Source: Pseudozyma flocculosa PF-1 (Eukaryota; Basidiomycota; Ustilaginomycetes; Ustilaginales; Ustilaginaceae). Taken from it: a stretch of 64,000 nucleotides of DNA. Shown here piece by piece: positions 1 to 62,799 of this stretch; position 1 is the first letter of the stretch, and the number at the start of each line of letters is the position of its first letter. The translations under genes and the position numbers were made by a program. Where the stretch lies: NCBI RefSeq assembly GCF_000417875.1, contig NW_006920897.1, positions 1 to 64,000 on the forward strand. The letters are read 5' to 3'. The notes under the pieces were generated by a model, which was not told the DNA's origin, ran no database searches, and saw only the letters and a program-made list of their open reading frames with translations.

Positions 1-170
1 CACCCACCTGGCCCAGCCGGCCAGCCAGCCAGCCGTCAGTCCAGCGCAGCCACCCGCCAGCCTAGTTCAGCCGCCCGGGCCAGCCAGCACCTGCCAGCCA
101 CTCGCCAGCCCAGCCCAGCCAGTCACCCAGTGAGCTGCCAGCCACCGCTGCTTCCGCCCCGCTGCCGCCG

Positions 171-221
171 TCAATCATCGGAGACGCCGGAGGAGACCTC
201 TCCGAAGTCTCCGATGATTGA
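171..221. repeat. 51-bp palindromic hairpin, copy 1
   Basis: TCAATCATCGGAGAC is followed by a short GGAG...CTCC inner stem and then the reverse complement GTCTCCGATGATTGA, making a near-perfect hairpin. The same palindrome sits in the other large elements at 3830-3880 and 4503-4553, so it is a conserved internal part of the element. Confidence 0.85.
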
Positions 222-681
222 GACCACTGATGGCCTTGCTTCCACTCCACCTGCACCTGCACAGCTCACCTTACCGTTGTCTGCTGGTCTGCTGCCGCTC
301 TGGTGAGTTGACTGTTGCTGCTTTGTCCTTCTGCTGCTCTGCCGCGCGCCCTTGCTAACTCCTTTGTTCCCCTCTACTTGCCTGCTCCTCCCTCATCCCC
401 TTGCTTTGCTGCTGCTGCCCTGTCGCTGCCGCTGCTGCCGCCCTGTTGCCGCATGCAACCACCTGCCTTCCTGCTTTCTTGCCCCGCCACCCACCAATGC
501 TGTTGCTGTGCCACCGCACATCAGTGTAACTAGATTTTGCAATACAATGCCGGTAGAATACATACGGCTGTGGGTGCGAGGGAGGGCCTACGGTAAGCAG
601 GCTGTAGGATGCCTACGGCCAAAAATGCCGTAGGTGGCCTACGGCATCCCAGTGCCGTAGGGGATTAACGATCTCCTACGG

Positions 682-886
682 TGACGCGGGCCCGAAGCCT
701 GGGCCACGCCGACCCTGACGCGTTTTCTTCTCTCGGCTGAGACGGCCTTTTTTGCCTGCCAGCTGGCAGAGCTTTTTGCCGCGCGCGCGCACGACCATCT
801 CCCTTCCCTTCCTACCATCATAGTCTCCAGCCAAAAGTGGCCCTCCCATCCATCTCCTGCTTTGCGTGCTTTGTCCGTTTCAACGG
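682..886. mobile_element. Possible 205-bp insertion inside element A
   Basis: Compared with element C (around 4050-4075, read in reverse), element A is interrupted here. C reads CTCCTACGGCACTGCAC without a break. A carries about 205 extra bases flanked by ACGG on both sides (678-681 and 883-886), consistent with a 4-bp target duplication. The ends show only weak inverted similarity (TGACGCGG against TGAAACGG). It has no coding capacity. The alternative is that C lost this segment by deletion between short repeats. Confidence 0.4.
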
Positions 887-951
887 CACTGCACTTTTGT
901 AGATCATCTCTGATTCCCGAAATCGTAGGAAAATTTCTGCCCCTAGCTATG

Positions 952-1462
952 CTTGCTGGCAGCTGGCGGCTGGCGGCTGGCGGCTGGCACTTGGCAGGTG
1001 GCTGGCTGACGGCTGGCTGGGTGGCTGGCTTGGGTGGCTGGCTTGGGTGGCTGGCTGGCGGGTGGTGGCGGCTGGCAGGTGGTGGCAGCTGAGGGCTGGC
1101 GTCAGGTGGTGGTGGTGGTGGGATGGCAGGAGAGACAAATGGGCGGCGGATGGATTTTGCAAAGGGCCAGGTGGCAAAGGGCCGGGTGGCAAAGGGGCCA
1201 ACGTGCGCGCGCAAGGCCTCCTGAGCTGACATAAGCAGAGCCATTTTCTCGGCCGTACAAAGCCTGCGGCTGAAAGCAGCGCAAATGGCCTCCGATTCCT
1301 GGCCGTAGGTGTCTTTTGGCCTTTTTGGGCTGCAGGAGTCCTCCGAAATCCGGCCAAAGGACCACGGCGGCCCAAAAAAGCCAAAGGATACTCCCAAATC
1401 CGGAGTTCAGGGCCAAAGGACCTCTACGGCCCAAATCGTACTTACCTTTGACGCTAGCTATG
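952..1462. mobile_element. Element B: right-hand part of a CATAGCTAG-family element
   Basis: This runs from the end of nested element A through a GGCTGGC-type minisatellite (about 955-1120), a block shared with the other elements (GAGCTGACATAAGCAGA near 1222) and a subterminal array of CCTACGGC/GGCCAAAGGA motifs. It ends at the terminus GACGCTAGCTATG at 1462, followed by ACT (1463-1465) as the presumed target duplication. Its last 20 bases are the exact inverse of the first 20 bases of the element at 2924. The intervening 1463-2923 is therefore bracketed by inverted element ends. The left end is off the window. Confidence 0.75.
955..1120. repeat. GGCTGGC minisatellite core
   Basis: Tandem GGCTGGC/GGCGGCT/TGGGTGGC units of 7-12 bases fill the centre of the element. 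The same unit occurs in the opposite orientation (CCAGCC) at about 3290-3780 and in the same orientation at about 4640-5150. It is the common core of the family. Confidence 0.85.
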
Positions 1463-3515
1463 ACTTCTTGGCGCTTGTCTTCTTTCTGGGAGCCAGCTTG
1501 CTGGTGCCGCTCTCCTTTGCGATCTGAGAGAGCTTGTCGTAGGCCTCAAACAGCGATGCAGCCATGCATGTGTACTCGAGTTGGACCTTCTTGTTGTCCC
1601 TGGCGAGCGTGGCCGAGTCTGTAAGGAAGGCATGGACCTCAAGCAGCTTGTCCAGAGCTCTAACCTTGGCTGTCAAGTTCCTAGGGCCGGTTGAGCAGGG
1701 CTTGCCAAGGAAGGAGCAGTAGTCGCACTTTGACTTCTTGCCTTCTTCGGTCCTTGACTTGCCGGCAAAGTTGAAGCCATTGCTGCGCCTGCAGACGACA
1801 CCGTGCAGTTGGCACTTCTTGCAAGCCGGATCCTGGAGGACAAATATGGGCTCCAATGTGAGCATGGTCTTGGGGAAGTGCGCTTCCAGGCGCCTGTTGT
1901 TGCGCGCATCCGCCGGCAGATGGAAGAAGGAAGGCTACCTCAACAGGATCCTTGCACTTGATGTGCACATGGCCTTTGTGGCCTGCCCTCAACTTGCGTG
2001 GTGTTGGCTTGCGTGCCAGCGTTGAGGAGGCAGGCAGCGGAGCGAGCTTGATCTTGGAAGTGGAGGCAACCGCTTTGCCTTCAGAGGACTGGTAGTCGTC
2101 GTCGTCATCGTCTTGTTCTCCTTCTCCTTCTTCTTCTTCTCCAGAGGACTGGACCTCTTCCTGGTCCTCCTGACTGGCCTCTGAGGCGGGGTCCTCACGC
2201 TTGCTGTTGCCCTCAGACGCGGTGAACTTGGCTTCAGGCTCATGGTAGGGGATTTCCTTGGGGATCTCGACAAGTGGGGAGCGGTTGCAATGCCTAGAGG
2301 ACTGGATGTGCGTCTAGTCCTCTTGATCGTCCTTGACATTGGAGTCCTCACCTTTGCTGGTGGGGTCCACAATGATCTTGCCAGCGCAGATGAGCGCGTC
2401 GAGTTCTGTAGCGGGCTTGAGCAGGTGGGCGCGCTTGCTTCTGCCCTTGCCCTTGCCCTTGCTCTTGGCCTTGGCCTTCCCCTTGTGCTTGCGGACGGGC
2501 TCCTCAGGCGGAGGACTGCTTCTTGCAGCTTCAGGACTCTGGACCGTCCTCTCGACCTCTGTGTTGGCGACTTGGCAGGCAGAGCCGCTGGCCTGGCCCT
2601 GGTCCTGGTCCTCAACGCTGGAGTCGGCTTCTTCCTTGCTTGAGCTGTAGATGTACGCCTGCTTGTGCACCCTGCGTGGCTCTTCCACCTTGCGTTGAAG
2701 TTGCGTCTGGCGCATCTGCTCTTGCACAACTGCAAGTCAGCGTTGGACCTCCTGCTGCTTGTGATGCAGTTGCTCGATCTTGAGCTGGCGTCGCATCTCC
2801 TGGGCCTCGCGCTTCGCCTGCTCTAGTTCGGCGTCCAGCTCCATGTCAATGTCATCCTCGCCTTGGGAGGAGGAGGCATCAACTACTTGCTGGTCAGCGG
2901 GCGTGTTGTGGCTTGCTGGCTCTCATAGCTAGCGTCAAAGGTACCTACGATTTAGGCCGTAGGGGTCCTTCGGCCCTAGACTCGGAATTCGGGAGTGTCC
3001 TTCAGCCTTTTTGGGCTGCCAGAGTCCTTTGGCCGGAAATCGGAGGTCTCCTGCGACTTTTTTGAGCTGCACAGGCTATACGCTTGGGAATTGGCAGGGT
3101 CCCGCGCTGTTTTGCAACGCAGCACTGGTACGGCCGAAAGTACGACTTTTTCTGCTTACGTCAGCTCAGGGGCGCCCTGCTGTTGCGCGCGCGCTGGCCT
3201 GCCACCCGGCCGTTTGCCACCCGGCCCTTTGCCAAAATCCATCCGCCACCCACCTGTCTCTCCTGCCCTCCTACCACCACCACCCAACGCCAGCCGCCAC
3301 CACCCGACGCCAGCTGCCACCACCCACCAGCCAGCCGCCAGCCCTGCCAGCGCCCAGCACAGTCACATGGCCCTGCGACTCACCCAGCCACCCGCCACCC
3401 GCCAGCCACCACCCGCCACCCGCCAGCCACCAGCCAACAGCCAGCCGCCAGCGGGGCCCCACCAGCCAGCAAGATGCCAGCCAGCTCTCAACAAAGCCCA
3501 GCCAGCCGACCGACC

Positions 3516-3556
<41 letters not shown>

Positions 3557-3829
3557 GTCAGTCCAGCGCAGCCATCCGCCTGGCCCAGCCACCCGCCAGC
3601 CGGCCGTCAGCCAGCCGCCAGCCGCCAGTCAGCCGCCAGCCGCCAGCCGCCAGCGAGGCCCAGCAAGGCCCAGCCAGCAAGCCGTCCAGCCACCCGCGCG
3701 GCCCAGCCAGCTGCCAACTCAGCACAGCCGCCTGGCCCAACTGCAAGCTGCCAGCCGGCCCAGCCAGCCACCCGGTGAGCTGCGAGCTGCTGCTGCTCTG
3801 CACCGCTTGCTTCCACCCTGCTGCCCTCT

Positions 3830-3880
3830 TCAATCATTGGAAATGTCAGAGAGGCCCTCTCCGGCATCTCCGATGATTGA
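3830..3880. repeat. 51-bp palindromic hairpin, copy 2
   Basis: The left arm is TCAATCATTGGAAATG and the right arm is CATCTCCGATGATTGA, so the stem has a few mismatches. It belongs to element B' and is equivalent to the hairpins at 171-221 and 4503-4553. Confidence 0.8.
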
Positions 3881-3990
3881 AGGCCTTGCTTCCGCTCCGC
3901 TCTGCTCCGCTCCGCTCCGACTGCCTGCACAGATCACCTTGCCGCTGCCTGCAGGTCTGCTGCCGCTCATGTGAGTTTGCTGTTGCCGAT

Positions 3991-5500
3991 CATAGCTAGG
4001 GGCAGGCTTTGGCCTACAATTTCGGAAATCGGAGATCATCTACAAAAGTGCAGTGCCGTAGGAGATCGTTAATCCCCTACGGCACTGGGATGCCGTAGAC
4101 CACCTACAGCATTTTTGGCTGTAGGCATCCTACGGCCTGCCTACCGTAGGCCCTCCACTGCCGTATGTATTCTATGGACATTGTATTGCAAAATCTAGCT
4201 ACACTGACGTGCGGCGACACAGCGACAGCATTGGTGGGTGGCGGGGCAAGGAGGCAGGAAGGCAGGTGGTTGCGTGCGGCAACAGGGCGGCAGCAGCAGC
4301 GGCGGCAGAGCGTCAGCAGCAAAGCAAGGGGATGAGGGAGGAGCAGGCAAGTAGAGGGGAACAAAGGAGTCAGCAATGGCGTGCAGCAGAGCAGCAGCAA
4401 GCGGAAACAGTCGACTCACCAGAGCAGCAGCAGACCGGCAGGCAACGGCAAGCAAAGGCGAGCTGTGCATGCATGCAGAGCGGAAGCAAGCGGTCAGTGG
4501 TCTCAATCATTGGAGACGCCGGAGAGGGCCTCTCCGACGTCTCCGATGATTGACGGAGGCAGGCAGAAGCGGGCAGAAGCGGTGATGAGGCAGCTGGGCA
4601 GATGCAAGCAGCGAGGCAGCTGCGCTTTGCTGGCAGCAGCGGCAGCTGGCTGGACTGGCAAATGGCGGGCTGGACTGGCGGCTGGCTGGTTGGACTGGCG
4701 GCTCCGGGAAGCTGGCTTGAGCGGCGGCTGGCTGGCTGGCTGGGCCTTGCGGGGTCTCGCTGGCGGCTGACGGCTGCGCTGGACGGTCGGCTGGCTGGCT
4801 GTTGGCTGGCTGGCTGGGCTTGCGGCTTGGGTGGCTGGCTGGCTGGGCCTCTCGCTGGGCCTCGCTGGCTGGCTGGCTGGCTGGCTCGGGTGGCGGCTGA
4901 CTGGGCCTCGCTGGCGGCTGGCGGCTGGCTGGCAGGTGCTGGCTGAGCCGGGCGGCTGGACTAGGCTGGCGGGTGGCTGCGCTGGACTGACGGCTGGCTG
5001 ACGGCTGGCTGGCGGGTGGTGGCGGCTGGCAACTGGCAGCTGGCGGCTGTTGGCTGGCTGGCGGCTGGCTGACGGCTGGCTGGGCTGGGCCAGGCAGGTG
5101 GCGGCTGCGCTGCGCTGAAGGCTGGCAGGTGGCTGGCGGGCGGCTGGCAGGTGGCGTCGTGTGGTGGTGGTTGGAGGGCAGGAGATGGTACGGGCGGGTG
5201 GACGGAATTGGCAAAGGGCCGGGTGGCCGCGCGCGCGCACCAGCAGGCCCCTGAGCTGACGTAAGCAGAAAGGGCCATTTTTCTGCGCAGGGTGGGGTCG
5301 GCCCAGTGCCGTAGGAGGCCTACGGCCAAAAATGACGTAGCTGCCCCTCAGAAAATGGCCGTAGGTAGCCCTACAGCCCCGATTTTCCGGCCGTAGGTGG
5401 CCCTACGGCCATTTTTAGCGTAGATGACCCCCGATTTCCCGATTTTCTGCCGTAGGCTGGCGTACGGCCAAAAACCACCTGCCCTTTGACACTAGCTATG
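3991..5500. mobile_element. Element C: complete CATAGCTAG-family element nested in B' (1510 bp)
   Basis: The left terminus is CATAGCTAGGGGCAGGC and the right terminus, in reverse complement, is CATAGCTAGTGTCAAAGGG. Direct GAT repeats flank it at 3988-3990 and 5501-5503. An unoccupied site supports the insertion. Without C, the B' sequence reads through GTTGCTG...CTTGTTCTTCT into CTCTGCCGCGCGCC, matching the uninterrupted stretch at about 301-360 of the left-hand copy. Clusters of CCGTAGG/CCTACGG palindromes sit just inside both ends (about 4060-4165 and 5310-5465). The interior carries the hairpin (4503-4553) and a GGCTGGC minisatellite. It has no transposase. Confidence 0.88.
4503..4553. repeat. 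51-bp palindromic hairpin, copy 3
   Basis: TCAATCATTGGAGACG pairs with CGTCTCCGATGATTGA around a GGAGAG...CTCTCC inner stem. It is the internal palindrome of element C. Confidence 0.85.
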
Positions 5501-6884
5501 GATCTTGTTCTTCTACCACTCTGCCGCGCGCCGTTGCTGACTCCTTTGCTCCCCTCTACTTGCCTGCTCCTCCCTCACCGCCTTACTTTGCTGCTGACAA
5601 TGCTCTGCCGCTGTTGCTGCTGCCGCTCTGCTGCCACCTTGCTGCTGTTGCTGCTGTCCTTGTAGGTACCGTATCAGTATTGCAATTGAATGGTTGTGCA
5701 GAAGATACGGCTGTGGGGCGTACTGTGCCTACGGTGTGGGAGCGATGCTGTCCTGCGGCCCAGCGGAGCGTAGGGGTCCTACGGCCCAAAGGCTGAAGTG
5801 GTAGACCGGCTGGCTACGGCCCTGGGGTAGCGAAGGAGATCTCCACCTCCCGAGGCCGTAGCTAAATCCTTGCCGCTAGCTATGTCTGGAGGGGCGAGTC
5901 GATGCCGCTTTGACCATCAAGCTGGCTGTTGGCCTCCTGCTGCTCCTCAGACGTCATCCCGACATCTTCTTGCTCTTCCAGAGTGCTGGAGTGGGCTTGA
6001 GGAGACCTTCCAACGCCTTCAGGTGCCTGCAAATGGGCTGATTGGGCAGCGGTGCTTGCTGCGAGCTGCTCGGGTGTGGTGGCGCGCATGGCCTCTTTCA
6101 AAATGGAGGCATGCTTGGAAGCAGCCTGTTTGTCCTTTTTGGCCGTGGCGCGTCCCTCTGCCTCGCCAGTGGCCTCCTCTGGCTGGTTGGTGGTGGTGGT
6201 GTTGTTGTCAGCGCCCTAGTTGGCATTGTCAGTGTTGGTGCTGCTGGCCTGAGTGGATCCAGAGCCCTGGAGCAACGTCTTGGGCTCTTGGTTGCTGCCT
6301 TTGGCCTCTTGTGTTGGCTCCTTGGCCTTCGAGTTGGCCCTGGCGCGCTTGTTGGTGGTGTGGTCGGCGCTGTCCTTGCGCTTGCTTGCGGTCTGCACGA
6401 TCGGCATGACCTGGAGCGTTGTGGCCTTCCTGGCGCGGGTGGACTTGCGCAGCATGGTGTTGGCAGCGTCGGTCATTGTGCTGGCGTTGGTGGTGTAGAT
6501 GACTGGTTGTTGGTGCCGGTGGATGGATGGCAGGTGCTTGCTGTTGGAGGAGCGAGTTGGGAGCAGTATGAGGGTGGAAATGGTGGTAGTGGGAAGGAGA
6601 GTTGGAGGGTGGCGTGGCCATTGCCCTTTGTTGGTCTTGATTGATGCCCTTGGAAAGTTAGCCGTGTGGAGGTAGAGTAAAGGGCGGAAGCGGAAATTGG
6701 GGTCCTGATTGACTTGCCAGAAGTCAATCCTAGAATGGTAAAGGCTTTGATGCAACTGTGGTGATTGAAGCTTGTTTGTAGGTAGGGAAGGAAGATTGAC
6801 GAAGTTTATGGTTTGTTCGTGGGGTAGGTCCGTGCAGGTCACAAAATGACAGTGTATAGCTCGGGGCGGAGGCCCGGCTTATTA

Positions 6885-9668
6885 GTTGGCAAAGTAGGGC
6901 TCTAGAACAGAGAGCCAGTCTCTGTTCTTCGCAAGCGTGACTTGGTCAAGCAGCTTGGTGAACATGTCAGCAAGCTGATCATGTGTAGATGTCTGGACAA
7001 CCGAAATGGTGTTGAGAGCTTGCTGCTCGCGTACAAAGTGGTATTTGATGTTGATATGCTTTGTGCGGTTGTGGAATTTCGGGTCTTTGGCTAGCTGGAT
7101 TGCTGCCTGGTTGTTGGCATGGAGCCGTGTAGGGCTCTAGACTAGCAGTCCAATGTTCTGGAGTAGTCTCCTGCAGGACCCACATGATTTCTTTCGTCGC
7201 TTCTTGCATTGCGACGTACTCGGCAAACGTGGTGGAGTCGGTGATAAGGCCTTGACGCTTGGAGTACCAGCTGTACGGCATGTCTTGTATGGTGTTGGCG
7301 ATTTCAGATGTAGACTTTCAACTCTGAGTGTCTCCCCCAAAGTCTGCATCGGAATATGTCGCCATTGCATTGGCCCAGTCCGTTGGGTCGACATCCAGTT
7401 GTCTGTATGCATGTTTCCGAGTGCCTTTCAAGTAGCGTAGAAGGTGCTTTGCCGCCACAAGAGCGCTAGTGGTCGGTTCTTGGAGGAAGCAGCTGAGGTG
7501 TTGGATGGCAAAGGCGATGTCTGGCCGAGTGCAAGTAGACATATAGAGTACCAAGCCTACCATTGTGCGGTACATCGAGTGCTCAATTTGCGAAAGCGGC
7601 TCGCCAATGGTCAGGTCAGAGCTTGATTTCATTGGTGTGTGGACAATATTGGCATCGCTGAGGCCAAAGTGGAAAAGGAGTCGGTCAATGTATGCCATTT
7701 GGGAGAGATGGAAAGAGTCCGTGGTCGACTGCACTTGGATTCCGAGGATGTATTGAAGCGGGTCACCTCCAGTCATCTGGAAGTGACTGCAGAGCTCTTG
7801 TTTAACCTTCTCGGCATCTTCAGGTCGTTGCGCAAAGATAACGATGTCATTCAACGTACAGCATCAGGATCACCGGTGGGGCATTCTTGACCGTTCAAAG
7901 GAATAGAGCAGGGTCATAGTCAGACTGCTCAAAGTCCATCTTGTCAAAGACATCACTGGCCTTTTCATACCAAGTGCGTCCTGCTTGCTTGAGGCCGTAG
8001 AGCGCCTTGTTGAGTTGACATACTTTGTCGTCTCTAGAGCTCTGGCCTAGCGCTTGGTGCATGAAAAGTTTGCAATTGATGTCGCCGTTGAGGAAAGCAG
8101 TGACTACATCCATTGGGATGACAGTCATCTTGAGCTGTAGAGCGATGATGAGGAGAAGGCGAAGTGTTGACATTTTGACAACTGGCGCAAACGTTTCTTT
8201 GTAGTCGATGCTGTGACGTTGCGTATAGCCTTGCACGACCAATCTAGCCTTATATTTGTCGATTGAGCCATCTGCTTTACACTTGGTCTTGAACACGCAT
8301 CAACTTCCGATGATGTTGCGCCCTCTAAGCCTATGGACCAGCGTCCAGGTATTGTTGTCATCGTGCGCTTTCAGCTCTTTATTGATTGGTTCCTCCCAGA
8401 GCGGCCAATTGGCACGACATCGAGCTTCTTCAAACGTGTTTGGTTCATTGTCAATCGATGATGGTGCTTGAGCTGAGTCTTCAGGCATCGAGGTGTCCTC
8501 CCTATCCATTGGATTTGATGTCTTGAGCTCTGGAACATCCGGCACGTCAGCAACGTGAAACGCTCGCAGTGGCTTGCTGTCTGTTGGCGTGCGGATGCCA
8601 TTGTCGCGTTCTGTGGCGGTCGCAATGGGAGCACCCAGTGGTGAGTCAGGCATGTTATTGTAGTGCTCTGGAACGACGGTTAGAGTGCAGGTCTTGTCGG
8701 TCGGTCCTTGCTCTTCCTTGCTTGGCTCAGCATTGGCCAGGGTTGATGCAACCTGGTTGCTCAGCTTGCTGTTTCCAAAGAGCGTGAGCATCATCTTGGT
8801 CTTGAATGGGAAGACATCTTCATCGAAGACGGCATGTCTGGTGACCAATGTAGTCCTTGAGATTGGGTCGTATAGCTTGTATCCCTTTGTGTCGACCGCA
8901 ATTCCCAAGAAGATGGTCCTAATTGCGCATTTGTCCAGTCATAGCTAGCAGCAAAAGTAATTCCCGATTTTCCTTATCGCACAGGCTGTGCGATCCAGGA
9001 TTTGAGAGTCGTTATACAAGTGCGATCTAAGATCCTGGCCACTATGAGTGGATTTCAGATCGCAGGCAGGAAAAATTCAGGATCTCAGATCGCAGCTGAT
9101 CGCATGCCTGCTGCAATCTGAGAAATCGCACAAGCTGGCTGCAGCTGGAATTTCAAATCTTTATACAAGTGCGTTTTTTTTTTGACCAGATCCTGCTGCT
9201 AGCTATGAGTTTGATGCGCCTTTCTTCGGGGACATGGGCCCAAGCTGCGCATCCAAATACCCTCAGGATGCAAATGTCTGGTTTGTTGCCGCACATTGCC
9301 TTGTAGGGAGTCATTCCGTGAAGTGACTTGGTCGGTAGGTGATTCTGGAGGTAAACTGCATGCAGGAGCGCTTCTCCCCACATGATGTTTGGAGCGCCGC
9401 TTTCAAACAGTAGAGCTCTAGTCTTGTCAAATAGAGTCCTGTTCATGCGGTCGGCAACACCATTCTGTTGCAGGGTGTAAGGAGCGCTTGTCTCGTGGAT
9501 GATACCACAGTTTTCGAGGTGACTCTTGAACTCATGTCCGGTGTATTCTCCTCTGTTGTTGGATCTGAATCTCTTGATGGTCTGACCGGTCTGGTTCTCC
9601 ATGAACAGCTTGTACTTGATGAAATAGGCGTATACTTCGCTCTTCTGCTCCATAAGGAAGACAACAGT
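6885..9668 (-). pseudogene. Ty1/copia retrotransposon pol remnant (integrase, reverse transcriptase, RNase H)
   Basis: The minus strand carries, in order: the C-terminal half of the integrase core (9668-9211), element D, the post-integrase KGYKLYDP motif (about 8880), a variable linker, reverse transcriptase (about 8300-7860; KARLVVQGYTQ, ETFAPVVKMSTLR, VVTAFLNGDI) and RNase H with the copia tail (about 7380-6885; SDADFGGD, TDSTTFAEYVA, HINIKYHFVRE, DQLADMFTK). The integrase SDNGGEY box reads SNNRGEY and the catalytic Glu motif reads VADRMNRT. The reverse transcriptase YVDD box is broken by a one-base shift and reads as YV/ND. In-frame stops lie near 8301 and 7319, with further shifts near 7150. 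The gag, protease and integrase N-terminus are absent, cut off by element E, and I could not delimit LTRs. It is non-functional. Confidence 0.9.
8940..9207. mobile_element. Element D: 268-bp MITE-like CATAGCTAG element inside copia integrase
   Basis: The termini CATAGCTAGCAGCA and its exact inverse (TGCTGCTAGCTATG) form a 14-bp perfect terminal inverted repeat. Direct AGT repeats flank it at 8937-8939 and 9208-9210. On the copia coding strand the duplication is ACT; removing the element and one copy restores an unbroken frame across the conserved region between the integrase core and the KGY motif. Subterminal repeats here are GATCGCA/TGCGATC palindromes rather than the CCGTAGG motif of B, B' and C. 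This is a separate subfamily with shared ends. Confidence 0.9.
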
Positions 9669-9860
9669 CATAGCTAGCAGCAGGGTTGGGCCCGGTTTTG
9701 GTCGTAGGCAGGCTACGATCTGAAATCGGGCATCGACCCCTGTCTACGATTTTTCCGATGCGCAGCCTGCCTACGATCTCAAATCGGGCATCGATGCCTG
9801 TGTACGATTTTTTTTGGGCGCGCAGCCTACCTACGATCTAGCTACGATCCAAAATTGTAG
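9669..9860. mobile_element. Element E: truncated CATAGCTAG-family element
   Basis: The left terminus CATAGCTAGCAGCAGGG starts at 9669 directly after AGT (9666-9668). It shares the AGCAGCA extension with D. The subterminal motif is CTACGATC/GATCGTAG, repeated with CGATTTGAGATC-like variants, a third motif set. No right terminus followed by AGT is present; the sequence fades into a (CCTG)n tract. The element cuts off the 5' part of the copia pol remnant. Confidence 0.7.
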
Positions 9861-9900
<40 letters not shown>

Positions 9901-16476: not shown

Positions 16477-19400
16477 TCACATGAACCACATGGTCTCGGT
16501 GAAGATCTGACTCCTCCTGAGCTTGCCCATGGTGGCCTCGGCGTCGATGTCTTCGATGCTCTTGGCCTCCCTGCCCTCGGAGCTGACGACGGTCGACGTG
16601 TCGCCGCTGGTGTCGGGCCAGACGAGCGCCTTGGCCTTGGTGGCCAGCTGGTGGGCGTAGTACGCGGGGGGCACGAGCGAGACGGATCGCGTGGCGCGGG
16701 CGTACGAGTAGCAGAGCGAGTTGATGGTCCTCTGCAGGCTGTCCGAGCTGAAGCGGTTCTCGTCCATCAGCACCACGTAGTGGGCGGGGATGGTGGTGCC
16801 GACCAGGCCGGCCTGCGACTGGAGGTAAAAGTCAAAGGCGTACGGCGAGGTGATGTCGCGGTCGACGACGGTGCCGGCGAGCAGGTTGCCGGAGCGACCG
16901 TCGGTGCCTTGGCCCCTCTCGGAAAAGATGCGGACGTGGTGGCGCTTGCCGCAGATGACGTACGTCACCTTGACCTCGCCCTTGGGCTCGACCTGCCTGA
17001 CGGCCTTCTTGAGCGCGTAGACCTCGTGGTCCAGCACGCTCTGGTACTGTCCCTCGGACACACCGTCGCGGAAGACGACGACAGAGGCGGGCAGGCGGTT
17101 GGCGCGCTTCTTCCAGCGCTGGAGGTGGCCGGCAAACATCGACTGGGCGTGCATCAGCACCTCCTGGGCCTGGCCGCCCTTACGGCTGCGCGGGTTGAGC
17201 TGCGCCCGGATCTCGGAAGAGTAGCGGCTGCGGTTGCCGTCGACGGTGGCCACCGAGCAGGCAATCGACGGCAGATCGGTGCCGGGCGCGGGGTGGGTGA
17301 CGTCGACGCCCATCAGCATCGTGTGCGGGGTCAGCCCGGGCAGGTCCTGGCCGTCGACCGAGTGGGTGGTGCCGCCGAGCTTGATGGCCACCTTCATGGC
17401 CACGTTGGCCAGGTACTGCGGCTGTCCGCGGTCGCTGAAGGCCTTCTTGGTGTTGACCACCTGCGAGGCGACGGGCGAGTTGAGCTTGAGCGCCGACGCA
17501 CGCTTGATCTCGTCGTAAAAGGGCGTGTCGACGCGGTCCATGATGCAGAAAAAGAGCTGCGGCAGGACCGCCTGCCCGCCCTTGGTGATCTGCTTGCCCT
17601 GCGCGTACGCCGCGCGGCCGGCATCGTTGAGCGTGCGCATGATCTGGCCCGGGTCGGTGCTTGCCTGCTCAAAGTACGGCGGCTCGGTGTTGATGACCCT
17701 GACGCCGAGCTCCTGCAACTTGCCCATCTGGGCGCCGACGAAGCGCTTGACGAGGTTCTCGGGCTGGCGCGAAAAGTTGACGACCGCCCACACGATGAGG
17801 GGGTCGCCACCGCTGATGAACCTGGCGTTGACGAGGTTCCAGGAGCCGTTCTGGATGCGCGGACGCTGGCCGCCGGGCGAGTACTGCACCGTGGGGGGCT
17901 GCAGCTGGCGAGCGGGAGCGCGCATCAGCTGCGGGCTGATGCGGACGCCCCACTCCTGGATGCGACGGTCGTCCTCGTAGCTCAGCTGGCGGCGGATCTC
18001 GTCGATGCGGCGCATCTTGACGTCGGGACGCTGCGCGCACTCCCTGATCATGTCCTGCACCTGCATCGGGTTGAGGCGCTGCGGAGGGAGGGGAGCGCTG
18101 CCGGGGACGAGGGCGCACACCTCCATGGGGACGAAGCTCTTGCCGTCGCCGAGGATGACGCAGGGAAGCTCCGGGTAGCGCACGGTGTAGTTGAACTTGG
18201 ACTTGAAGTAGGAGAGGATCGTGTGCTCGGTACCGTCCTTCAGCGTAAACTTCATCTCGCGCGCCGTCTTGGGAGTGAACCCCTTGAAGAGCTCGACCTT
18301 GTTGGTGGGGCGGTGGGTCACGCGGACCTGGCTTCCTTTGAGCCTCCTGCGCAGCTCCTGGAGCTGGTTCGGCAGGAGGCGGTCGATGGCGGGAGCCGGA
18401 CCCGACGGGCCTCCTCCGTAGCCGCCGCCGCCGCCGCCGCCGTAGCCTCCGCGGCCCGGGGGTCCACCTCGGAAACCTCCACGGCCACCTCGACCGCCGC
18501 CGCCACCGCCGCGACCACCGCCACCGCCGCCACCGCCGCTAGGGATGATGTTGAGGATCTTGCCGGCAACCGTGACGAGGTCGCCGCTGCCCAGGAAAGC
18601 CGAAAAGGCGGCGTCGATGTTGACGACCAGGCCGCTCATGGTAGGGCGCACCGACTGGAAGAATCCGCGCCACACTTCGGCGCCGCCAAAGATGGGCAGG
18701 GTGTTGTTGCCGTCGAAGTAGCGGTGGCGTCCGGCGCCCTGGATGCGGTACTTCTTGGCGGGCTCGTTGGCGAGCAGGATGTCGAGGGCCTGGAGGCCGT
18801 CAAAGACCTGGCCGAGCACGTTGGCATTTCCCGAAGCCATGGCGATCTGGCGGTCGCCGCTGCAGTAGGCGGCCAGGCGCGACAGGTCAACCTCGCGCAC
18901 CTTCTTGACCCTCATGCGGAATCGACGGTCGCTGTCGCGGCGACGGGTCGGGGCCGGACCGCCGACGGTGGCGCCAAGGGTGCCGGGGATGGCGGGCAGG
19001 TTCTCTCTGGGAGGCAGGCCGACCTCGAGGGTGATGTCCTCGAAGGGCAGAGGGCGGTTGGCAAAGGCGTTCTTGCGGCCATCAAAAGTGAGGCCGTCGA
19101 CGATGCCGGTGGTGAGGCCGTGGTCGCCCGCGCGAGCCGCTTCGGCGAAGGCGTGCTCGAAGATCGAGAACTGAAGGTTCGGCGGCAGGCCACGTTCCGA
19201 GGCACGGCCCGGGGCGCTGCAAGGGAACGAGAAGAGGCCACCAAGATCCGCCAGGGCGAAGGGCAGAGAGTATCGTCAGCGTCTGCAAAGAAGGGGACAG
19301 ACGAGGTCGGACTCGGATGGTTCCAAGCGACAGCCGCAGCTATGGCAAGGAGCCAGATCCACTCACGGTGCGCGGCCCTTCTCGTAGATGGGCTCGATCT

Positions 19401-58134: not shown

Positions 58135-61100
58135 CTAACGACCCGGGGGTTTCTTGAGTCTACAGTGCAGCCACGCCTCCTTTCTGACGGTGACGGACCT
58201 CCCCGTCTCTTTGGCCTTGAGGACGAGCAAGTCCCTCCATGCGAGCTCAAAGAGGTCGCGGATCTTGTGCGGAGACCAGTTGTACCGCGACAGGCACCAC
58301 GAGTAGGCGTACGAGGCGCGGAGCCGCTGCAGCCGCTCCACCTCTTCGCGGTCCAGCCCGCGCAGGTAGCCCTGCAGCTCGAGCGGCCATGCGTGGAAGA
58401 CCTGTACCAGCTCGTCGATCGTGTCGTATGCCCGTGGCGCCATTGGAGGGACGAAGGCAAAGCTGATCTCCGTCGACGATGACGACCCGTCGGCGAGGCC
58501 GGGGACCGGGGCGAGCTGCGAAGAGACAGAAGAAGAGATGAGGGTGCCTGTTGCGCTCCCGCTCGATACGGCCGCCGTCGATGGCGTCGAAACGGAGGTA
58601 GAGGCGGAGGTCGAGGGAAAGAGGATCGACGTCTCGGGCGTATCGCCCGCCTCGGTCGACGAAGACGACGGCGGAGGGTAGCATCGCGCATCGACAAACT
58701 CGTCGTCGCCATCGCCATCGTCCTCGAGCTCGGCGATGGCCGTCGCGCTAAGGCGGGCGTGGGCTCCGTGTTCGACCTCCTCAATCTTGGCCAGCGCCGA
58801 CGGGTCGCGCAGCAGAGCCTCCCAGCCGTCGTCGCTGCTCTCGAGCGCTTCATCGAACAAAGTTCCGGCATCCGACCGGGTCCTCGTCAGCTTGCCACTG
58901 CCGCCCCTGTGCTCGGCACTCGCGCCGATCTCGTCCCGCTGCGACGAAGGAGGAAAGGGCGCCGACTTGGTCCTCTGCATCGACTTGGCGCCTCGCGCGT
59001 TTCGCTGCTTGGGCTTGCGCCTCACGTCGGCCTTGCCGCCGCGCCCGCCGGCGGCGATGGCAGCCTTGCCCTCCCGCTCGTAATCGCTCGCCAATTGTCG
59101 GTTGGTCAGGCGAACGCTCTCGAGCACAAAGTCGACGTGCCGGCAGATGGCGTCGACCAAGTGTTGCTCGAGGCGGCCCTTCTCCATGGCCTCTTTCCAC
59201 GGCCGCGAAAGCGCGACATCCTCGTCCAGGCGAGCACCTTCCAGGATGTTGAGCCGCAGACGCAGCTGTGCCTTGAGCTCGATGCAGTGCTTCTGTGCCT
59301 GCTCGTGCAGGATGTCGAGGATGCACGGAGGCAGCCGCGCCGCTCTCTTGACGGTCGGCAGCCGGTCGCCATCGTAGATGAACGCATTCCTCTTGCGGAG
59401 GTCCTCGAGGCCATCGTCCTTGACGCCCCAAGGGGGCAGCTGGAGGTTGAAGCGTCTCGAGTCGGCCCGGTAGACGTCCTCCTTGAGCTCGAGGCCCGTC
59501 TTGGACGAGTCCATGCACTGGTTGAAGGTGTGGGCGAGCGAGACGGCCTCTGCGCTGTCGCAGCCGTACCGGTAGCTCGCGACCAGGTGCATGTTGCCGT
59601 AGAAGCCCTTGAGCTGACGGGCGAACAGCGACTTGATCAGCAGCTGGGTCAGCTCGTCGTCTCGCTCCCCGGTCGGCTTGTCCCGGTGGCGATCGAGAAA
59701 GTCGGCGACCGCCACGTTGTTGTCGACGAACCTGGCCTTGAGCTTGGGGGTGAGGTCGGCAAAGTGCTCCGGTGCGTTGCGAAAGGGCTCGACGAGGCGC
59801 GGGTCCCAGAAGCAGCGCACGAGGTCGCCGTCGTAGTCTCCGCCGCTCAGCAGGTCCGCCAGCGGCCGTTTGCCCTTGGTCGAAAAGACGACGACGTCCT
59901 GGAAGACGGCCAGCTCCGGCCTGACCACGGCTCGGACCTTTTGGATGTCGGTGGGTAGGAGGCAGGGGTGGCGAGTCACAAGGACATCGCCCTCGGGCAC
60001 GTGGTGGATCCGCAACTTGGTGTCCGGGTCGACGACGCCTTCGATGCTGAAGCGGAACTGCATCTCGCCCTCCTCCAGCACGCCCGTCGGGTCCGGCATG
60101 CACATTGCCTCGGCGCTGCGCTCCAGGGGGATGGCAAAGTTCCTGAGGACGCGGGTCATCTCCAGATCGGCGATGGAGAAGATCTCGTCGGCAAGGTAGC
60201 GGTTTTCGGTCGGACGGAAGCCGGCCATCAGCAGTTCGTAGGCGCACTCTGCCCGGCGCAGTGGTCGGCTGGACCACAGATGGTAGCCGTCGTGGGAAAA
60301 GAAGCTGTCCTGCCCGTCGGAGCGGCGAGCGTCGTTGCGATCGTCGTCCGTGCGAGAGATGAGGCCGTGTGCGCGCTGGGCCGACATCTCCATCGAGCGC
60401 TTTACGCGGCCGATCGCGACGCCGGCGCAGTCGTCGACCTCCTTGGCAAGGTTGATCAAGACCTCGCCGTCGCCGGCGTCCACGTTGGCGAAGAGTTCGA
60501 CGATGGTGGACAGGTGGTCGCGCTGCAGCGCCATAAAGGTCTCGTTCGGCACCCCGCCGTGACTCATGACCATGAGGATCTGCTGGCTCAGCGTCGAGGG
60601 CAGGGTCGTCTTGGCGTTGGTGAGAAGATCGATCACCTTATGGCAGGGGTCGCAGTCGTCAAAGTTGGGCAGCTTGAGCTTGTTCTGGCTGCTTCGGACG
60701 TGGATGACCCGGGGTGCGTTGGCATCGTAGCGCTGATCCGTATTGGGGACAAGGAACCAGACGCCCTTGGCGCCGGCGACGCGGGCCTGGACTGCCGACG
60801 GTAGCGTCGGATAGTTGAGCCGATCGGCCATTGCCTTGAACACCGAGTACGACGCCGAGGCCGCACCGTCAGTCATGACGCGTCGAGAGCCGCGGCCTTC
60901 GTACACGTCGCCCAGGACGTCATCCTCGTAGACGATCTCGTCGACGAGTACAGCCGGCGTCGAGATGGAGATGGCGAGGAGCATCCTCTGGAGATACTTG
61001 CCCAGCGTGCTGCCGCTGTTTTCCTCCCAAGGGCCGTGGTGATCGTAAAGCGAGAAGACGCTGCGCAGCTCCAGGGGGTAGAATGACGGATACATCTCGT

Positions 61101-62799
61101 CGACCTGCAGCAGCCAGATGGCGCTCTCCTTGACCAGGCAGGGGCGGAAGATGCGGCCGAGGATGTGGAAGGGTCGCAGGAGAAAGTCGCGGAAATCGCG
61201 CTCGGCCTCCTTGCTCGGGTCGTACCGCTGCAGCGACTTGAGCAGCGACGGCGCCACCTTGAGCCGAATGAAACGCTCGCTCCCAAATCGCCTCGTCAGG
61301 CGGCAGCTGGCACCGAGCCGAGGGGGCAAGAGGCGAACTTCGAACTTGACATCCTGCGTAACGGCGGAAGGTTTCCAGCCCTTGTGCTGGGCCCCCTCCG
61401 CCAGCGCCACCTGCGCTTCAAAGTGGACTTTGCCGCCAAACCAGTCATCTCTCGGGTCCGGGCTCGCTCCCACGCCGGCAACCGGGGACCGACGGAGAGC
61501 CTGATTCTCGCGATCGAGCTCGGCGTGCGTGTCGGCCTCTTGCTGCGAAATGGTCTGCCACGCGGGTAGCCATATCTGCTCAGCATCGTCCCACAGCTTG
61601 GCCTGCACTTGACGGTCGTAGAACTGGCGCATCGAAGCAAGGCTCGACTCGGATCGGAGCGCGCCGATGCCGTCGACAATGTTGATGTTGTCCCATGTGA
61701 TCCAGCCATCGGACACGAGGGATGCCAGGAAGAATTGGGTGCCCCACGGCACACCGCTGCGGCCGTCGGACTGCCTTTGCATAATCTTAAGTCGGTGTAA
61801 GGCAGGGACGACGTCGTTGACTGCGGCGGGCATCCTGCAGGTCGGATCGGAAGTCGGTCCTGCGGACGCTCCGGCCTTGTTGAGCGCGGGCATCTTTGTC
61901 GCAGCCACCGGGGCCAACGCGGGCAGCGGCCGCCGCTGCGGCTCCGGCGTGCAGATCTCCGAGTCCGGACCAGGCCTATGAGAGGCTGGATCAACGCGGG
62001 TCGCCGGCGCCTTGGACTGGTCGGAGCGAAGCGATAGCTTGGCAGTGACTCCGGTCAGCGTGTCCTGCGCGCGATCAAGACGCGCTGCAGTGGAAGCCTC
62101 ACCGGCTCGAGTGCGTTGCGGCCTGCCGCGCGCGGCAAACGAGCCGCGGCTGGCTAGGAGGCGAGCAGCGGTTCCGCGCTTGTCGGTCGGCGAAGGAGAG
62201 CGTGCCGGCAAGGTGCGTTGATCAAGGGTGCGGATCCGCTTGCCTGGCGAGACTTCGAGCTCGGAGCCGGGGGACGAATCGTCGTACGGCGTCGACGGCG
62301 AGCGGCGCTTGTTGGAGGCAGAGCTGGCGGTGCAGCTTGTGATTACAGCCGTCGTCGATGTGAGCTTCGATGACGAGCTGGAAGGCGGACTAGGCGTCTT
62401 GGAAGGAGGTGCGCGCGAGGCGTCGATGCGGGAGGCTGCCAGGGAGATGTTTGAGAGTCAAGTTTAGGACACGGCGAGGCTCATGAGTTGTTCAGCTGAA
62501 GATCAGGGACGCTGGGCAAGGCGGGCGACTGTGGCTTGCTACCTACGCTGCTCGTCCAGTCTGGATCGGTACAGGAGGGTCGCGAGGCCGGCATCGAAGC
62601 GCCTGCGCGGAGCGGCCTTTTCCTCGTCGTCGGAGAGCGGTAAGAGGTCCCTCTGGAGGGTTTTGAGGAGAGCGAAGAATTCGTGCTTTGTGGCCTGATC
62701 GTCTCCGGAGAGAAGGGCGAGGAGGGCAGCTTCCCTCGCCGAGGAGATGGCGTGGAACTTCCTGAGCTGATCGAGGGTGGATCGAGGCGTCCTTTGCAT
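58135..62799 (-). CDS. RNA-dependent RNA polymerase (RNA-silencing type)
   Basis: Cellular RdRPs make double-stranded RNA from aberrant or repeat transcripts for Dicer, feeding Argonaute. Exon 1 (62799-62547, starting MQRTPRSTLDQLRKFHA) and exon 2 (62435-58135) join through GTAGGT and CAG in phase, giving about 1517 residues. After a disordered Ser/Pro/Arg-rich segment come a PWGTQFFLASLVSDGWI block and the RdRP fold: FRDFLLRPFHILGRIFRPCLVKESAIWLLQVDEMYPSFYPLE, DGAASASYSVFKAMADRLNYPTLPSAVQARVAGAKGVWFLVP, ILMVMSHGGVPNETFMALQ, the segment LVTRHPCLLPTDIQKVRAVVRPEL and the catalytic loop LLSGGDYDGDLVRCFWD (about residues 943-959). The three Asp of DxDGD are present, with Tyr at the second position. 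The C-terminal 150 residues include a helical block (ELAWRDLLVLKAKETGRSV). With Argonaute it supports a working silencing pathway. Confidence 0.93.

Follow-up and report, generated by a model that had tools for sequence, protein, structure and literature searches.

Here we describe a family of DNA transposons in Pseudozyma (Anthracocystis) flocculosa PF-1 whose ends read CATAG..CTATG, represented by several copies within bases 1-64000 of contig C29 (hereafter the window, meaning the whole 64-kb stretch analysed; the genome comprises 23.05 Mb in 33 contigs). The window copies are non-autonomous, and it is very probable that they are cut-and-paste transposons of the CMC (CACTA/EnSpm-Mirage-Chapaev) group, mobilised by the Tnp2 transposase of relatives about 20 kb in size. 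Genome-wide analysis of the ends revealed 3-bp target-site duplications far above a shuffled expectation and at least four subfamilies. Furthermore, the location of the Tnp2 transposase within large elements having the same CATAG ends as the window copies was supported on contigs C2 and C13. The family is most likely a member of the CMC clade with CATAG..CTATG ends, comprising large transposase-bearing elements and many small passengers. Also, most of its ends are confined to one place per scaffold, a placement that may mark centromeres.

CATAG ends, subfamilies and target-site duplications

Nine exact CATAGCTAG sites were found in the window, all within 943-9677, where 0.11 would be expected; none of 100 shuffles reached nine. 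The features that they delimit, together with one insertion target, are as follows.

2921..5887, forward strand: subfamily C non-autonomous element 2924-5884, TCT duplications at 2921-2923 and 5885-5887
3988..5503, forward strand: subfamily B non-autonomous element 3991-5500 (1510 bp), GAT duplications at 3988-3990 and 5501-5503
3991..4290, no strand: CCTACGGC subterminal array in the left 300 bp of the B element, 3 copies
5201..5500, no strand: CCTACGGC subterminal array in the right 300 bp of the B element, 6 copies
8937..9210, forward strand: subfamily A miniature element 8940-9207 (268 bp), AGT duplications, five GCGATC motifs
9666..9880, forward strand: subfamily D element, left end, AGT flank at 9666-9668, end coordinate approximate
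1..951, reverse strand: truncated element with terminus at 951, end type k, cut by the contig start
952..1462, reverse strand: subfamily C terminus at 1462, end type e, apparently interrupted by element 1..951
6885..9743, reverse strand: Copia-type pol relic, insertion target outside the CATAG family, RVT_2 and SH3 domains in four of five pieces scanned

The initial annotation had reported three exact inverted pairs bracketed by TCT, GAT and AGT, and their coordinates (2924-5884, 3991-5500 and 8940-9207, respectively) proved correct to the base; the three unpaired ends that it listed at 951, 1462 and 9669 are equally real. Those at 951 and 1462 are right ends, and because the window begins at base 1 of C29, their left partners would fall beyond the contig edge. 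For the left end at 9669, no right partner was found within the window. The B element is nested inside the C element, which measures 1448 bp once the nested element and one GAT are subtracted and has a complete relative at C4:716794-718198 (1405 bp, AAG/AAG). The insertion site of the 268-bp A element is the Copia pol relic, and end type k, that of terminus 951, also terminates the large C2 and C13 elements on their right. No transposase was seen in the 64-kb window, as had been noted initially; it is present elsewhere in the genome.

Across the genome, CATAGCTAG occurs 194 times against 112 for a reversed-pattern control, and the longer end CATAGCTAGCAGCAG occurs 70 times against 0. Since the raw CATAGCTAG count is merely 1.7 times the control, the evidence rests on clustering and on the longer ends. 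Sites no more than 25 kb apart were linked, three or more forming a cluster, and 14 clusters, the window included, were read in whole or in part. Using a weight matrix built from 125 exact ends, we retained 148 ends with a score of at least 12 and sorted them by their first 24 bases into subfamilies A, B, C and D, a grouping made post hoc. Ends were then paired by end type and by a distance below 9 kb, with the flanks ignored; the long C2 pairs are excluded by this limit.

This procedure yielded 45 structural pairs from 13 of the 14 clusters. Identical trinucleotides flanked 25 of the 45; in 20,000 shuffles of the flanks, the mean number of matches was 3.8 and the highest 14. By subfamily, matching flanks were found in 8/19 A, 9/10 B, 2/5 C and 6/11 D pairs. 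The 25 matching trinucleotides favour A-N-T (A first in 21, T last in 17), with C before the trinucleotide in 15 and G after it in 11. The proposal of a CATAG family with 3-bp duplications is thus supported in the clusters beyond the window, but the ends define at least four subfamilies rather than a single family. The A pairs of 266-271 bp, intact in size, are exemplified by the following:

C10 293393-293659
C17 627278-627544
C9 750538-750805

At C9 750506-750546, three left ends follow one another at intervals of 16 bp, an arrangement that resembles a successive addition of terminal fragments.

Subterminal repeat arrays are a feature of CACTA elements. Six B elements each carry 5-11 copies of CCTACGGC within their two outer 300-bp ends (2-6 per side); the middles, 910 bp long in the window B element, have none. 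The right end of the large C2 element has 11 CCTACGGC in 577 bp, that of C13 has 13 CTACGGC in its last 500-base bin, and GCGATC occurs 4-5 times in each of four A elements examined. Such arrays are clear in B and A and weak, with few copies, in C and D.

Two further observations concern the interior and surroundings of the window elements. A hairpin of about 50 bp (tcaatcat.ggagac ... gtctccgatgattga), recognised by eye at about 170-222, 3830-3880 and 4503-4555, recurs within B and C elements and may be a common internal module or a nested tiny element. Additionally, a low-complexity frame on the reverse strand (1684-2822 and 5901-6878) is apparently split by the C element; two pieces of it were scanned and had no Pfam match, and it has no match in other clusters.

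Large elements, transposase and cargo

The relatives encoding a transposase, which the initial annotation had suggested seeking, were found on C2 and C13. On C2, an element of about 19.7 kb extends from a left end at 526723 to a right end at 546437, is flanked by CGT on both sides, and has the transposase between its ends. It interrupts a B element (525416-546555, ACT/ACT). When the insert and one CGT are subtracted, the B element is restored to 1422 bp and aligns over 1-1422 to the window B element (70.8%) and across its whole length to a C5 copy (70.1%). On C13, the matches follow the same order as on C2, namely transposase, two orphan open reading frames (ORFs), a piece of PRP8 and a third orphan ORF, and the stretch 407802-418143, read without N, contains the PRP8 piece, the last orphan ORF and a CATAG end, CTAGCTATG. 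On C13, we rejected 393254 as the partner of 418143, since the two ends are of one type and their flanks differ (AGG/AGA).

The PF02992 model (Transposase_21, tnp2) has four matches in the genome, over the cut-off on C2, C13 and C33 and weak on C8; the C2 element protein matches it with an E value of 7e-15. The stop-free transposase frames comprise 1042 codons on C2 and 1046 on C13, and residues 280-780 of the C2 protein are 100% identical to PFL1_00837. A protein-database search, limited by a word filter, returned at least four homologues, the C2 protein included. The four that we compared are the C2 protein, two PSFLO_ proteins of P. flocculosa and one protein of Tilletia indica; P0002 and P0003 among them are near-copies. 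Residues D205, D308, C328xxC331, H595xxxH599 and E619 are invariant in all four, an order in agreement with the D, D, CxxC, HxxxH, E order that the available part of PMC12730594 gives for EnSpm, Mirage, Chapaev and Transib. The choice of the putative catalytic D and E residues is our own.

Compared over 836 codons, the transposases of C2 and C13 have a ratio of nonsynonymous to synonymous substitution (dN/dS) of 0.17, a value suggestive of a protein maintained in working order until recent times. The C33 transposase frame is 67% identical to that of C2 over 461 codons, and CATAGCTAGCAGCAG ends lie 4-6 kb from it; the C33 lineage may include the autonomous partner of the A elements.

Three related orphan ORFs accompany the transposase in each of the C2 and C13 elements. 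Genome-wide, this family has seven matches: three on C2, three on C13 and one weak match on C33 (E 1.5e-4, 26% identity), about 4 kb from the C33 transposase. Outside PF-1, its member PSFLO_07775 and the transposase PSFLO_07778 occur together on one 26,081-base contig. The orphan ORFs match no Pfam family over the cut-off, and an AlphaFold model of one is poor (mean predicted local distance difference test score, pLDDT, 41.6). We read them as putative helper, TNPA-like proteins on account of their place and conservation only.

Both large elements also carry a decayed piece of the spliceosomal host gene PRP8 (PRO8NT, E 7e-81; RRM_4, E 1e-40), which itself lies on C22 as a long open frame. Identity to the host gene is 96.5% for the C2 piece and 96.6% for the C13 piece; 45 of the differences are common to both, 88 are confined to C2 and 71 to C13. 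Three frameshifting indels are also common to the two pieces. Together with the common differences, these would most simply be explained by one capture of PRP8 before the copies separated, followed by decay. A working role for the carried piece was judged unlikely in view of the common frameshifts, two in-frame stops in the C13 piece and a constraint that looks weaker than that on the transposase (dN/dS 0.39-0.56 against 0.17). That these ratios nevertheless stay under 1 could be due to transition bias or to constraint in the host lineage.

Proposed mechanism, classification and alternatives

In the mechanism that we propose, a Tnp2-type DDE transposase encoded by the relatives of about 20 kb elsewhere in the genome would recognise ends of the form CATAGCTAG-NNN-CA-(A/G) together with subterminal repeats, namely CTACGGC for subfamily B and the C2/C13 elements and GCGATC for the A miniatures. 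The element would be cut out and reinserted with a 3-bp staggered cut, preferably at A-N-T, and the small copies would be mobilised by this same enzyme. The clustering at one place per scaffold would reflect centromeric heterochromatin in which copies land or survive.

The CMC/CMCT group is defined, in the part of PMC12730594 available, by C(2)C and H(3-4)H motifs, 5'-CA..TG-3' termini and duplications of 2-5 bp. The CATAG elements have a DDE transposase with, at sequence level, C(2)C and H(3-4)H between the second D and the E, as well as 5'-CA..TG-3' termini and duplications within that range. Among the features proper to EnSpm/CACTA, they have the Tnp2/Transposase_21 domain, the 3-bp duplication (in the 25 pairs, and CGT at C2) and subterminal arrays (six B elements, the C2 right end and C13). 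The CACTA (CMC/EnSpm) logic of the initial annotation is therefore borne out by transposase, duplications and arrays, and it fails at the terminus, which the same annotation had correctly read as CATAG and not CACTA. As the CAC terminus is lacking, we file the family in the CMC clade as a terminus variant, not as a strict CACTA element. KDZ elements differ in duplication length, which is 8 bp as in Zisupton and 3 bp here; the KDZ model PF18758 had no match in the genome and was silent in the control too, which proves little.

The plant En/Spm TNPA-TNPD system comprises a Tnp2 transposase, a second element protein and subterminal repeat arrays. The CATAG elements share the transposase, the arrays and possibly a second element protein, but their orphan ORFs, without a Pfam match over the cut-off, have no shown similarity to TNPA. 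Plant Pack-TYPE/Pack-CACTA elements, as far as the account in PMC8903248 extends, likewise hold a host gene fragment between their ends; the C2 and C13 carriers differ in that they also encode the transposase, the fragment is decayed and the host is a fungus. The rust-fungus EnSpm/CACTA elements covered in the consulted part of PMC12730594 resemble the present ones in their DDE transposase (C(2)C and H(3-4)H motifs), 3-bp duplications and outermost CA..TG bases. The termini given there for fungal EnSpm elements, those of the rusts included, are CAC..GTG, in contrast to CATAG..CTATG here. Also, no TET/JBP domain was present among the seven ORFs scanned of the C2 element, and in its place C2 and C13 have the three orphan ORFs and the PRP8 fragment.

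It is very unlikely that the CATAG ends belong instead to a Plavaka-type element, itself CMC-related. PlavakaB, as described in the part of PMC12730594 available, has CATCA..TGATG ends and 2-3-bp duplications, and so resembles the present elements in its CAT-initial ends and duplication length but differs in reading CATCA for CATAG. The distant Tilletia homologue P0004 leans the same way, with a match to the Plavaka model (E 0.06) that is weak and below the cut-off and no match to Transposase_21. P0001-P0003, however, match Transposase_21 (P0003 below the curated cut-off) and do not match the Plavaka model, PF18759, even at E values up to 1. PF18759 also had no match in the genome, a result that proves little, as the control genomes were silent too.

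PIF/Harbinger elements make 3-bp duplications as well, and Harbinger targets TWA. It is highly improbable that the copies are moved by such an element, or by one of another superfamily that makes 3-bp duplications, with the Tnp2 genes as bystanders: the duplications here favour ANT, not TWA, and the Tnp2 genes sit in elements with the same CATAG ends and B-type subterminal arrays; the other transposase families searched genome-wide were Plavaka and KDZ. Finally, the idea that larger repeats contain CATAGCTAG as a common or structural motif and that the flanks match by chance, which the modest raw excess might suggest, is practically untenable given the nine window sites, the flanks matching far above shuffled expectation and the end-to-end empty site at C2. 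The refuting conditions proposed with the initial annotation, namely a lack of matching flanks genome-wide or ends lying in a larger known repeat, did not hold.

Several observations weigh against the classification as Tnp2-mobilised CMC elements. Besides the missing CACTA or CAC..GTG terminus, the C2 element contains two N gaps (1713 and 1731 bp), with no more than 46 bp of left end preceding the gap, and the empty-site alignment, made in sequence that contains internal repeats, reaches an identity of only about 71%. The reading of C13 leaves out 402995-407801; no left end of the right type was seen on C13, and the AGA flank of its right end has no proven partner. The AlphaFold model of the transposase is too poor to use (mean pLDDT 31.4). 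Flanks are unequal in 20 of the 45 pairs, and the A subfamily, with only 8 of 19 pairs equal, includes seven of 15 size-intact copies (266-271 bp) with unequal flanks, unlike B. Exchange between copies or a different joining reaction could perhaps explain this.

Clustering of the ends along the scaffolds

Among the 182 sites listed of the 194 CATAGCTAG, 154 fall in 21 clusters; 21 of the 33 scaffolds have exactly one cluster and none has two. Random placement would put 21 clusters on 21 different scaffolds with a probability of about 3.5e-5 (scaffold lengths partly interpolated). Most clusters are compact (19 of 21 below 10 kb). The 268-bp A family is confined more strictly: all 39 matches listed (at least 39 exist), on 18 scaffolds, lie in or beside CATAG clusters. 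The remaining 28 of the 182 listed sites occur outside clusters, singly or in pairs, so that confinement is strong and not absolute. Possible small elements outside clusters are:

C19 215,896-216,366
C19 625,061-626,336
C25 264,029-264,449

On twelve scaffolds, which like the rest are not proven chromosomes, no cluster of three or more listed sites is present, and on C19 pairs of sites occur at two locations; both facts speak against a perfect one-per-chromosome rule.

The presence of one cluster per scaffold suggests centromeres, and on placement alone the clusters may mark them. With N left out, 12 of the 13 clusters computed (C25 excluded) were poorer in G+C than the remainder of their fetched stretch, by 0.7-7.3 points, and C2 was richer. 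The idea of AT-rich cluster cores was rejected, as the low G+C of several clusters came from N runs. The window Copia pieces were searched against the 13 other clusters fetched and, at E 1e-4, gave no Copia counterpart; the single match of the Copia query, 19 residues on C9, is the end of the A element included in the query piece. Copia is thus no common component, and a Copia-built centromere was likewise rejected. Separately, Argonaute-like and RNA-dependent RNA polymerase (RdRP)-like frames, named from their translations and not by family search, lie on the reverse strand of the window at 16477-19275 and 58135-62457.

For the related smut Salmacisia buchloeana, the consulted part of PMC10849329 gives 22 chromosomes, close to the 21 CATAG clusters of P. 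flocculosa, and centromeres of 32-181 kb predicted from low G+C, low gene density and long terminal repeat (LTR) elements; most CATAG clusters are far shorter. Tentatively, with the case standing a little short of evenly balanced, the clusters could be putative (peri)centromeres that are short, one per chromosome and made mostly of nested CMC DNA transposons, not LTR retrotransposons, with Argonaute- and RdRP-like genes present. Copies elsewhere would then be few because the transposase targets this chromatin or because others were removed.

Searches of the open-licence literature, on P. flocculosa transposons and fungal CACTA termini among other subjects, gave no paper that we recognised as describing a CATAG-ended family. 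In this yeast of the smut lineage, the family would extend the CMC clade by a terminus type, and its large elements bear a fragment of host PRP8 beside their own transposase. Its near-confinement to one place per scaffold provides a testable centromere marker for this biocontrol yeast and makes it possible to ask if a DNA transposon is directed to centromeric chromatin or simply persists there.

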